Origin: Candidatus Cloacimonadota bacterium
Lineage (GTDB): Bacteria > Cloacimonadota > Cloacimonadia > JGIOTU-2 > B8-G9
Reading direction: 5' to 3'
DNA length: 5,764 bases
Assembly (NCBI GenBank): GCA_003647765.1
Contig: QMNM01000117.1
Span: forward strand, 1-5,764
The notes under the pieces were generated by a model, which saw only the letters and a list, made by a program, of their open reading frames with translations, was not told the DNA's origin and made no database searches. This document shows positions 240-5,764 of this stretch, in pieces. The translations under genes were made by a program, and so were the position numbers. Positions within the stretch are counted from its first letter, which is position 1. Each line of letters begins with the position of its first letter.

Positions 240-1586
240 ATGAAAACTTTATTTTTGACAGTCATTTCGGTTCTCTTATGCTCATTACTCTTGGCAGAAA
301 CTTCTATCACCATTTTTAATGAAAATTTTGCTACTGTCAGGACCAAACTGCAACTTGACTTGAAAAAAGGTGTTAATGAATATAGGTTTACTGACATCCC
401 GACTTATATTAAACCGACTTCTGTAAAATTAAACCCAATAAAGAAAACTGATAAAATAATCATCTACTCTCAAAATTATGAATATGACTTGGCTAATACA
501 AATAAAGTGCTTGATAAATATTTGGACAAAAATATTGAACTAATTGTCAAGAAAGGTGATGTGTTCAGTGGAATACTAAAAGCATTTGATAGCAACTCAG
601 TAATGATACAAAAATCGGGTTCAGATGAGATATTTATCATAAATAAGGAAGAGATGCAGAATATCAATTTAGCAAAAATGCCAGAAAATTTCTATACAAA
701 GCCCACTTTGCGATGGCTATTATATTCTGATAAGTCAGGCAAAAGGGAAGTTGAACTAAATTATATTACAGATAATATAAAATGGGATGCTCAATATGTA
801 GCCCAACTAAATAAAGATGATAATGCAATTGACCTCTCTTCCTGGATTTCTTTAGATAATAGAAGTGGCAAACGTTACGAAGATGTAAAATTGAAACTAA
901 TGGCTGGTGCTCCTCATTTAGTTAGAGAAAAACCTGTATATGCTCGTGATATAATGCCGTTATCTGCAAAAGGTATGCCAGAAGAATTCGGAGTAACTGA
1001 AAAAGAATTTTACGAATATTATTTGTATACTGTTAAGCAAACGGTAAGTATCAATAATAATCAGCAGAAGCAAATTTCCTTATTTGACCCTACTAATGTG
1101 ATAGTAGAAAAGGTTTTCACTTATAATTGTAATCCAAAAGGAGATATAAATACATCTATAAAATTTGTCAATAGTGAGAAAAATGGACTTGGCATTCCTC
1201 TGCCAAAAGGACTAGTCAGGATTTTCAAAAGAGATGCAGAAGATGATGTAGAGTTTATTGGTGAAGATGAAATAACACATTCTCCAAAAGATGAAGAGAT
1301 AGAGTTAAAAGTAGGTGTTGCCTTTGATGTAAAAGGAGAATTCACAGTCCTTCATACAGAACGGATTTCCAAAAGAGCGAGAAAAGAGGAATATCAAGTG
1401 GAACTACGCAACCATAAAGATAAGGATATTACTATTGAGGTAACAAAGAGATTGGGACGCGATTGGGAAATAACAAATGCTAGTGATGATTATGAAAAGA
1501 AAGATGCTTTTACTGCAAAATTTATAGTCAAAGTAAAAGCGAATCAGAATAAAGTAATAAACTTTACTGTTAGATTTAATTACTAA
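240..1586 (+). CDS. Exported DUF4139 domain-containing protein
   Basis: This is a 448-residue protein of the DUF4139 family, whose biochemical function is unknown to me. The N-terminus (M-K-T, then a hydrophobic run to LLLA at 16-19) reads as a signal peptide with likely cleavage after Ala19. Cys14 lacks a proper lipobox, so a lipoprotein is unlikely. Residues 97-143 look like a small Sm-like beta barrel (KKGDVFSGIL, then SVMIQKS and EIFIIN). The DUF4139 signature follows: RWLLYSDKSG near 158-167, IKWDAQYVAQL at 180-190, WISLDNRSGKRYEDVKLKLMAG at 202-223, then GIPLPKGLVRIF (318-329), FIGEDEITHSPKDE (339-352) and a beta-rich C-terminus. It lacks the long N-terminal coiled-coil region found in larger DUF4139 proteins. 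AGGAG at 229-233, six bases before ATG, supports the start. It appears monocistronic, with 375 bases before the next gene. A periplasmic or cell-surface location is inferred. Confidence 0.85.
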   Translation: MKTLFLTVISVLLCSLLLAETSITIFNENFATVRTKLQLDLKKGVNEYRFTDIPTYIKPTSVKLNPIKKTDKIIIYSQNYEYDLANTNKVLDKYLDKNIELIVKKGDVFSGILKAFDSNSVMIQKSGSDEIFIINKEEMQNINLAKMPENFYTKPTLRWLLYSDKSGKREVELNYITDNIKWDAQYVAQLNKDDNAIDLSSWISLDNRSGKRYEDVKLKLMAGAPHLVREKPVYARDIMPLSAKGMPEEFGVTEKEFYEYYLYTVKQTVSINNNQQKQISLFDPTNVIVEKVFTYNCNPKGDINTSIKFVNSEKNGLGIPLPKGLVRIFKRDAEDDVEFIGEDEITHSPKDEEIELKVGVAFDVKGEFTVLHTERISKRARKEEYQVELRNHKDKDITIEVTKRLGRDWEITNASDDYEKKDAFTAKFIVKVKANQNKVINFTVRFNY

Positions 1587-1677
1587 CTGACCTTACGTAA
1601 AAGAGGTTTTTAATATTGAACTGCTATCCTTAATGTTTTACTTTCTCAAATTCAAAAAAAGATATATGAGTCCACTA

Positions 1678-1847
1678 TAAAAACCATTAAAATGGTTAAA
1701 ATGGGCTTATTGTATTCTCTTACCCACAACTGAAGTTGTGGGCTTCTTGAAATTACTATCAGCGGTCATTTGGTGGATAAGAAGCCCACAGTTTTAACTG
1801 TGGGTAAAATGTAAAAAATCTAATACTAACCACTTCAGTGGTTTTTA
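1678..1847. repeat. 170-bp nested inverted repeat of four hairpins (BIME/REP-like or IS200/IS605-derived)
   Basis: Two arms, 1678-1748 and 1779-1847, are imperfect inverted copies around a 30-base centre. Each arm holds an outer and an inner palindrome. The outer pair is AACCATT/AATGGTT (1682-1697) and AACCACT/AGTGGTT (1828-1843). The inner pair is CCCACAACT/AGTTGTGGG (1723-1742) and CCCACAGTT/AACTGTGGG (1785-1804). CTTCTT (1743-1748) and AAGAAG (1779-1784) flank the inner pair symmetrically. Between arms the stem bases differ as compensated pairs, so each hairpin stays perfect. Inverted pairs of short hairpins are known as BIMEs built from REP sequences and mobilised by Y1 (IS200/IS605-like) transposases. 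The right inner unit with its AAGAAG foot resembles the terminal hairpin of such elements. No transposase lies in the window, so the family is inferred. The last stem runs into five T (1842-1846) and might act as a weak terminator. Confidence 0.75.
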
Positions 1848-1890
1848 GAGTAAGATCATTAGTTTTTTGAACTTTTTATTGTAAGTTAAT

Positions 1891-1911
1891 CCTTGCACTA
1901 TCTGCGCAAGG
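1891..1911 (+). promoter_or_regulatory. Possible leader hairpin before the GAF/pseudo-GGDEF operon
   Basis: CCTTGC (1891-1896) and GCAAGG (1906-1911) form a six-pair stem with a nine-base loop. GCAAG at 1906-1910 can also pair with CTTGC at 1928-1932, so two mutually exclusive folds exist about 30 to 70 bases before the start codon. It lacks a T-run and is not a terminator. A regulatory role is speculative. Confidence 0.3.
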
Positions 1912-1961
1912 TGAGCTAATAGTACAGCTTGCAAAGTTATTATTAAAAACTGAGGATTTTT

Positions 1962-2933
1962 ATGTTAGAGAGTTTGAAGAGATTAGAAGGGTTTTTTGCC
2001 TTTTTACAGGAAAAGAATAACCTGGAACAAAAGCTAAGTCATATAATTCGGAAATTAGTAGATATTATTCATCCTAATTCATGTTCTATAATTTTAAAAA
2101 AAACTCATTTTGATTACTATGGTGTCAAAATCAATCGGAATTTAACACACCATAAAGTTAAGGAATTAAGATTTTATGATAAAGATGATATTATAGAAAA
2201 GATGAAGAATACCAATATAGCTCATTTTTATAAGGAAGATAATAATAAGTTTATAATTGAGTATGCTTACTCTCATCTGATTTGTGTTCCAATTACATAT
2301 GAAGATGCATTTTATGGCTTTGCTCATATTGATAGAAAACATGGACATTTTACTGATGAGGATATACTGAGTTTTCAACTTTTCAGTCAAATTGCCAGTT
2401 TTGTGATTGCATTAGATATAATAAAAAACAAATATGAACAGTCAAAAGAAATAGACGAGCTTACTCATATAAATACATTTAGTTCGTTTAATCATCACGG
2501 CAGAGCTATTTTTTCACAGATGAAAAGATATAAGCGAGAACTATGTCTAATCATATTGGAAATTGAACATTATGAAAGAATGATTAGGAAATTTGGAATG
2601 ATAAATTCTGATAAAATGATTTGCGAATTCACTAACACAATCAAAAGTAGTGTCAGGATAATAGATTTATTAGGTAAGATTGATGTTAATGTTTTTGCTA
2701 TTCTTTTACCAGAGACGCCAATTGAAGGAGCAAAAATAGTGGCTGAACGACTTAATAAAATACTGCCAGATACTATCGCTAATTGTTGTAAGTTAAGCTG
2801 GGGGATTGCTGGTATAAATCAATCGTATAAAATAGATACATTTGACGAATTATTATTAGCTGCTGAGTCAGCTAAATTTAATGCATCAAGAAAATATATA
2901 AATAAAATTGAAGTTTATCGATCCGAACTCTAA
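1962..2933 (+). CDS. GAF domain protein with a degenerate (catalytically dead) GGDEF domain
   Basis: This 323-residue soluble protein has no signal peptide or membrane segment. Residues about 15-155 form a GAF sensor domain; its end is clear at HLICVPITYEDAFYGFAHID (105-124) followed by HFTDEDILSFQLFSQIASFV. Residues about 163-320 have the GGDEF-domain layout: DELTHIN in place of D-x-LTGLxN, FAILLPETP (245-253) after the active-site loop, LSWGIAG (278-284) for the SxGIA strand, and LLLAAESAKFNA for the final helix. The signature loop itself reads DVNVF (241-245) instead of GGDEF, and the first metal-binding Asp position reads LEIEHY (199-204). Diguanylate cyclase activity is therefore very unlikely. 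The remaining fold may bind a nucleotide or a protein partner. GAGGA at 1952-1956, five bases before ATG, sets the start. The hsp20 gene follows after 14 bases, which suggests co-transcription and a stress-sensing or regulatory role (inference). Confidence 0.85.
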   Translation: MLESLKRLEGFFAFLQEKNNLEQKLSHIIRKLVDIIHPNSCSIILKKTHFDYYGVKINRNLTHHKVKELRFYDKDDIIEKMKNTNIAHFYKEDNNKFIIEYAYSHLICVPITYEDAFYGFAHIDRKHGHFTDEDILSFQLFSQIASFVIALDIIKNKYEQSKEIDELTHINTFSSFNHHGRAIFSQMKRYKRELCLIILEIEHYERMIRKFGMINSDKMICEFTNTIKSSVRIIDLLGKIDVNVFAILLPETPIEGAKIVAERLNKILPDTIANCCKLSWGIAGINQSYKIDTFDELLLAAESAKFNASRKYINKIEVYRSEL

Positions 2934-3406: not shown

Positions 3407-3410
3407 ACAA

Positions 3411-3451
3411 GAGTTCAAGAGTTCAAGAGTTCAAGAGTTCAAGAAGTTCAA
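3411..3451 (+). repeat. Tandem octamer array GAGTTCAA (four perfect copies plus one 9-base variant)
   Basis: Perfect copies lie at 3411-3418, 3419-3426, 3427-3434 and 3435-3442, followed by GAAGTTCAA (3443-3451). The array starts four bases after the hsp20 stop codon, with a lead-in GACAA. Read in phase as CAAGAGTT, the unit shares the core CAAGA with the inverted arrays at 3486-3525 and 3599-3638. Confidence 0.95.
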
Positions 3452-3529: not shown

Positions 3530-3558
3530 CACGAAGAACACGAAGAAACACGAAGAAA
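3530..3558 (+). repeat. Tandem CACGAAGAA(A) array, three copies
   Basis: The copies are CACGAAGAA (3530-3538) and CACGAAGAAA (3539-3548 and 3549-3558), a 9-10 base period lying between the two inverted octamer blocks. From memory, similar CACGAAG-type strings occur between genes in many environmental bacteria; no function is known to me. Confidence 0.9.
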
Positions 3559-3598
3559 TTTCTAACAAAATGTTCCTATTTGACAGCATCAGCATTCT

Positions 3599-5747: not shown

Positions 5748-5764
5748 AGACAAGAGTTCAAGAG
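5748..5764 (+). repeat. Start of another GAGTTCAA octamer array, cut by the window edge
   Basis: AGACAAGAGTTCAAGAG at 5748-5764 is identical to 3405-3421, the overlap of the hsp20 stop codon with the first array. It begins nine bases after the recG stop codon. The array's length cannot be seen. Confidence 0.85.

Follow-up and report, generated by a model that had tools for sequence, protein, structure and literature searches.

This locus raises two questions: what has kept its stems paired, and which enzyme, if any, has carried it. The stretch analysed here (the window, 5,764 nucleotides) contains, between two genes, a nested inverted repeat whose arms differ at several stem positions without loss of base pairing. 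An earlier note had read the repeat as a structure under selection, either as single-stranded DNA for a Y1 transposase or as RNA, and as a possible member of an undescribed family.

Architecture of the palindromic element

The strings that had been listed for both arms (TAAAAACCA, TGGTTA, TTACCCACA and TGTGGGCTTCTT) were all found at 1678–1847, as were the four perfect hairpins in mirror order (outer, inner, inner, outer). The unit is longer than had been described: terminal inverted repeats (TIRs) stretch the element to 1667–1858. Moving inward from the TIR at either end, one meets outer hairpin A or B, then inner hairpin 1 or 2, and the spacer in the middle (Table 1). Compared in one reading sense, the arms differ by exactly three compensated base pairs, the number originally claimed, with one in the outer stem (T–A/C–G) and two in the inner stems (A–T/G–C and C–G/T–A); a single loop base differs as well (A/G). 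Folded as single-stranded DNA, the element region reached −31 kcal/mol against −15.3 in dinucleotide shuffles (z = −5.1), and 0 of 200 shuffles folded as well. The alternative of an RNA found no known family behind it, as Rfam gave no RNA family match anywhere in the window.

Table 1. Features of the element and its surroundings, in window coordinates
Feature	Position	Strand	Evidence
Upstream gene, DUF4139 protein, undisrupted	240–1586	+	
Longer repeat enclosing the window copy, imperfect ends CTGACCTTACG / CGCAAGGTGAG	1584–1921	.	
Whole MITE-like element, class A, 192 bp	1667–1858	+	BLAST, target duplication test, 23-copy alignment
Left terminal inverted repeat TGAGTCCACTATAAAAACC	1667–1685	+	Pattern counts in six genomes
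Outer hairpin A, AACCAT.TAAA.ATGGTT, 6-bp stem, loop TAAA	1682–1697	+	
Inner hairpin 1, CCCACAAC.TGAA.GTTGTGGG, 8-bp stem, loop TGAA	1723–1742	+	
Foot of inner hairpin 1, CTTC on +, GAAG on −	1743–1746	−	
Central spacer, sequence and length vary among copies	1747–1780	.	Copy alignment
Foot GAAG of inner hairpin 2	1781–1784	+	
Inner hairpin 2, CCCACAGT.TTTA.ACTGTGGG, 8-bp stem, loop TTTA	1785–1804	+	
Outer hairpin B, AACCAC.TTCA.GTGGTT, 6-bp stem, loop TTCA	1828–1843	+	
Right terminal inverted repeat, reverse complement TGATCTTACTCTAAAAACC	1840–1858	−	Target duplication test; A/C difference
Downstream gene, GGDEF-domain protein, undisrupted	1962–2933	+	

Each repeating unit starts at a foot with the 8-bp inner hairpin next to it; about 24 nt separate this hairpin from the 6-bp outer one. 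Read foot-first the loops are TTYA, equal to TRAA on the other strand. Loops lie 40–48 nt apart, whether in the element's own genome and its relatives or in Bacteroidota and Cnuella; three cases exceed 70 nt. The outer-left and inner-right loops look alike because A/G variation stays within the shared TRAA rule, read from the outer side; all four hairpins obey it, which makes cross-pairing of the swapped loops superfluous as an explanation. In the window element the feet point inward (CTTC ... GAAG), forming a tail-to-tail dimer; this term and its counterpart, head-to-head, are those used for REP dimers in the part of PMC3733652 consulted. The head-to-head arrangement (GAAG-inner-outer-outer-inner-CTTC) occurs in the same genome at L030, L031, L038, L040 and L041, and as both opposite arrangements are present there, foot plus inner and outer hairpin can be taken as the unit. 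These head-to-head units (class B, L030–L041) are themselves part of a longer repeat, GGCTTCTATCAACACCAAAAAATACAATATAGAAAATG; contig ends are often close by, and the units are therefore probably high-copy.

Copies, ends and target duplications

Further copies had been predicted in the host genome and its relatives, and BLAST found them: 56 matches in the own genome (a 1.97-Mb draft of 360 contigs, 88.8% complete) and matches in 10 of 59 genomes of the class, the own genome counted. Copy counts here rest on BLAST and pattern searches. All 54 testable hairpins of the own genome lie outside ORFs of at least 100 aa, and the family exists as multiple dispersed extragenic copies, as is characteristic of REP/BIME; several of its copies are degraded or interrupted. 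No earlier description was found in the open-access papers searched, in agreement with the idea of an undescribed family.

We aligned 23 class A copies, picked by their TIR ends and independently of pairing. The conservation of structure was borne out: pairing is kept in 97.7% of stem cells, against spacers that vary freely, and double-sided changes were seen at four stem pairs (12 cells versus 3.4 in shuffles). Covariation inside the class A family is modest because most stem positions are near invariant. The compensated pair changes noted between the arms are thus real, but not as events in the window copy: full-length copies in the own genome keep an identical asymmetry, with core ACTGAAGT on the left and GTTTTAAC, or rarely GTTTCAAC, on the right, and strict hairpin patterns repeatedly recover a left core CTGAAG and a right core TTTTAA (rarely TTTCAA). 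This rules out recent compensated drift in the window copy, and the arm difference is an old, fixed heterodimer property of the family.

Some of these hairpins carry other small palindromic elements inserted in their loops or at their feet, as if the hairpins were targeted. Such insertions are TCACCCTGTTAGAT..ATCTAACTGGGT (L024 and L036, own genome), CACCCCGTGAAAT..ATTTCACGGGGT (L025 and L029) and TCCCCAATTAAATTGGGGA (L053, L098 and L102).

The class A element, about 190 bp long, starts with TGAGTYCACTMTAAAAACC and ends with its inverse, in TIRs of 19–20 bp. Five genomes contain the TIR pattern 8–43 times each and a sixth has it once; the reversed control pattern gave 0. Among 43 TIR-bounded elements from the own genome and relatives, 28 have an exact 4-bp target duplication, compared with a mean of 2.0 and a maximum of 7 in 1000 shuffled pairings; duplications of 2, 3, 5 and 6 bp were at or close to background. 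A few members of the set (L152, L161, L171, L172) are MITEs of a second family, which shares these ends. That family, found in relatives G008 and G013, is 122–175 bp long, has different contents (CCCGCGAAACACACGAAATACTCG...) and likewise shows 4-bp duplications. From the TIRs and the 4-bp duplications, we conclude that the TIR-bounded form most plausibly moves by a DDE-type enzyme.

A candidate source of that enzyme is a multi-copy IS with the same TIR in relative G003, for which 19 left ends all run off contig ends and contigs stop at about 15 right ends too, the transposase not being assembled. Position 11 of the TIR is A on the left and C on the right in the window element, as at the two ends of this IS. 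Comparing the 4-mers that flank its left and right ends gave 9 matches out of 16, against a null mean of 4.0, which is suggestive of duplication. In relative G102 a homologous IS end (75% identity) is followed by a DUF772-domain transposase, the protein being incomplete and below the NCBIfam cut-offs. The assembled genomes examined contained no intact DDE gene with exactly these ends (TGAGTTCACT), and these draft genomes, which include no strain pairs, yielded no empty insertion site.

The window copy itself lacks a 4-bp target duplication (flanks TATA and TTAG), probably due to its location inside a longer repeat (Table 1). The two halves of that repeat, 1584–1665 on the left and 1852–1921 on the right, each recur separately in the own genome (15 matches), where no intact empty copy was found. 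As the copy has no duplication and is nested in a recurring repeat, it probably spread as part of a composite. The window holds other repeats as well: a stretch TTTTTGACTYAGCGYGTKGATTTATCCACTCGCATAA occurs twice upstream of the DUF4139 gene (61–105 and 185–225), its first copy containing the palindrome GTGGATTTATCCAC; short tandem repeats of GAGTTCAA lie on either side of recG (3408–3450 and 5750–5764); and GAAACACGAA-like runs are found at about 3530–3560.

A Y1 transposase beside the same hairpins

The same hairpins and feet had been predicted beside Y1 genes, and in relatives this is what we observed. Y1 genes (PF01797) are present in 44 of the 59 genomes, and the element hairpins adjoin one in five relatives. 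Upstream of the gene stands GAAG-CCCAC..GTGGG, followed by AACCGTTTYAACGGTT, which leaves about 47 nt to the matched domain; downstream come AACCATTRAAATGGTT, CCCAC..GTGGG and then CTTC. The gene lies between two sets of units at L095, L097, L098, L099 and L102, and at L096 has the downstream dimer only; these flanking units mostly lack TIRs. At the 3' end of the gene the outer hairpin is of type A, and in 10 of 111 genes the TRA of its loop serves as the stop codon, a clade-specific trait with a background of 0.3% per position. Where these genomes contain Y1 genes of other lineages, the stems at the corresponding places differ (L101, L107). A single Y1 gene is present in the own genome. The contig ends beside it, cutting off the upstream outer hairpin GTTTCAACGGTT partway; this truncated hairpin is of the element type, and the downstream hairpins belong to another family. 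In relative G013 (contig C105, L100), two near-identical subclass-1.2 Y1 genes stand in tandem about 750 bp apart.

TnpB had been named, as an alternative to Y1, as a possible companion. No TnpB stood beside the elements or Y1 genes read, and a TnpB/omega-RNA relative, hinted at by the resemblance of AAGAAGCCCAC...GTGGG to an IS605 end, was rejected.

Nearly all of these Y1 proteins carry the signature Y---Q--HH in about 147 aa. Judged by this signature as given by Quentin et al. 2018 (PMC6006769), the predicted partner is a subclass 1.2 TnpA-Y1; it has the features of that subclass (Y---Q--HH, about 148 aa, an HUH motif and a C-terminal tail). The protein barely passes the NCBIfam IS200 model (56.4 versus a cut-off of 55) and falls far under the cut-off of the REP_Tyr_transpos model (23.1 versus 80).

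A profile scan of one genome per species, using a narrow protein alignment, gave 80 named loci with such Y1 proteins in Bacteroidota, Ignavibacteria, Planctomycetota, Verrucomicrobiota and others. Many of these loci show the same arrangement, among them Algoriphagus formosus, Larkinella knui (downstream) and an Ignavibacteriales MAG, with hairpins such as inner cccacggtTTCAaccgtggg and outer aaaccgtTTCAacggttt and feet that are chiefly ATAG, GTAG, GAAG and TTAG. Stems and loops are of other kinds in Planctomycetes and Verrucomicrobia, and at some loci the hairpins are absent. Perfect hairpins (at least 7 bp, loop of 4) reach 3.42/kb within 200 nt of the Y1 genes versus 0.48/kb at 500–1000 nt. 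Dispersed copies are also found in Bacteroidota: the exact 20-nt inner hairpin has 44 copies in Cnuella takakiae and 15 in Flavobacterium potami (reversed control 0). Across the 13 Cnuella regions examined, an outer hairpin accompanies most of the inner ones at the spacing expected, and the units occur both singly and as tail-to-tail pairs.

Across 82 genes, Y1 protein distance correlated with flanking-stem distance (Mantel r = 0.475, 0 of 2000 permutations), the stems differing at 0.14 of 7 positions below a protein distance of 0.2 and at about 4 above 0.6. Shared ancestry alone could explain part of this correlation. Taken from these comparisons, the pattern indicates that units and Y1 gene travel and diverge together.

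Readings of the element and known systems

The reading we favour, with a probability of roughly 0.8, is that of a DDE-type MITE with two REPs inside it, each of two hairpins and arranged tail to tail, for which a subclass-1.2 TnpA-Y1 would be the cognate enzyme. The earlier note had offered a Y1 transposase as one possible reason for the structure; the TIRs and 4-bp duplications, which it had missed, make the element's own dispersal look DDE-type, with the Y1 hairpins as cargo. A plain BIME or REPIN moved by Y1 alone, its outer TIRs and 4-bp repeats being incidental, is an unlikely account of the TIR-bounded form, where exact duplications of one length only sit at the TIR ends in 28 of 43 cases and the same ends recur on an unrelated MITE and a multi-copy IS; to our knowledge, Y1 enzymes produce no target duplications, as is established for IS608. 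What speaks for such an account is that Y1 genes are surrounded by the same hairpins and feet, that the dispersed Cnuella units are recognised by hairpins alone, and that the feet-out class B dimers look like Y1 gene-bearing units minus the gene; for class B and the Bacteroidota copies it may hold.

The converse, a DDE MITE and nothing else, would make the palindromes RNA or transcription terminators and put the likeness to Y1 flanks down to MITEs inserting beside Y1 genes. The TIRs and duplications agree with it, and the hairpin at 1785–1804 scores terminator-like on the minus strand. We rate it somewhat lower still, as most Y1-flanking units lack TIRs, Bacteroidota Y1 genes have the same two-hairpin geometry with no such MITE seen there, stem divergence tracks the Y1 protein, and Rfam is without a match. 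E. coli REPs have secondary roles as mRNA stabilisers or as gyrase or IHF sites, and the hairpins here are intergenic as well, but that the element is now an immobile, host-domesticated array of this kind seems very improbable given the target duplications, the copies at unrelated loci, which indicate mobility, and the degraded or interrupted state of some copies.

On the favoured reading of a MITE with a REP pair as cargo, the roughly 190-bp element would insert with a 4-bp duplication, and the most likely agent is the DDE transposase of the IS with the same ends; this enzyme would recognise the TIRs and move the enclosing MITE, the Y1 sites riding along. The two-hairpin units would be cognate sites of the subclass-1.2 TnpA-Y1, whose gene in relatives lies between two pairs of them. 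TnpA-REP acts on one hairpin plus GTAG. By analogy with that E. coli enzyme, each unit may fold into two hairpins in exposed single-stranded (lagging-strand) DNA, where a Y1 dimer would read the foot and both hairpins and nick nearby; the second hairpin may supply the site of the second subunit or set the distance to the cut. Selection or gene conversion through Y1 activity might then keep the stems intact. In a contig of relative G001 (C108; L228, L097) a Y1 gene and both flanking dimers appear to lie within TIR-like ends with TCAA on each side, possibly a Y1 gene as cargo of a DDE-type element, to judge from the sequence. We further consider it rather probable, with less confidence than in the reading itself, that subclass-1.2 Y1 enzymes have a REP class of their own across several phyla and that a DDE transposon captured one such unit here; the class would have two hairpins at a fixed 40–48 nt with TRAA tetraloops, and one dimer of the enzyme would presumably read both.

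The closest comparison is with REP/BIME/REPIN systems and TnpA-REP (RAYT; E. coli Y-Z2 BIMEs; GTAG families, as covered in the part of PMC3733652 consulted). Shared with these are extragenic palindromes in many copies, a tetranucleotide foot 5' of the stem, inverted pairs in tail-tail and head-head form, heterodimers with different stems and, in relatives and other phyla, a Y1/HUH gene flanked by the same units. REP has one hairpin, whereas the present unit has two at a fixed 40–48 nt with TRAA/TTYA tetraloops. The GTAG guide of REP occupies the position of the foot at 1743–1746, but the foot is GAAG in the window element and NTAG, including some GTAG, in other phyla, as opposed to GT[AG]G, and the partner is of subclass 1.2 (Y---Q--HH) rather than class 2 (Y---NP).

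The signature, the length of about 148 aa, the low copy number and the presence in Bacteroidota all fit TnpA-Y1 subclass 1.2 as published, to which PMC6006769 assigns no REP in its table and, according to its text, generally no secondary structures at the termini; unlike that description, many of the present genes are flanked by paired hairpins. A published orphan class of single-strand transposase thus gains a likely DNA partner with a defined geometry, open to testing in cultivated strains such as Cnuella takakiae, and REP systems would be widened to a second Y1 branch, nearer to IS200, which bears on REP origins. IS200/IS605 elements (IS608, ISDra2) likewise combine a Y1 transposase with subterminal hairpins, but in the same orientation at both ends, whereas here there are two hairpins per end in mirror image (at Y1 loci mirror-image loops prevail, TTYA upstream and TRAA downstream), gene-free dispersed copies and no TnpB at the loci read.

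The Anabaena variabilis GTAG-15 dimers, REP dimers regularly found within a larger inverted repeat, are similar in that respect; their units are single-hairpin GTAG units, and the part of PMC3733652 consulted reports no duplication or DDE link for them. With the MITEs of DDE insertion sequences the element shares TIRs, a 4-bp duplication, the lack of an ORF and the ends of a multi-copy IS, and it differs from them in its interior REP-like pair, which goes with an unrelated single-strand transposase system. Carriage of a REP pair inside a DDE-type MITE could let REPs spread independently of their own enzyme, and if the reading is true, two unrelated transposition chemistries each have sites on one and the same small element.
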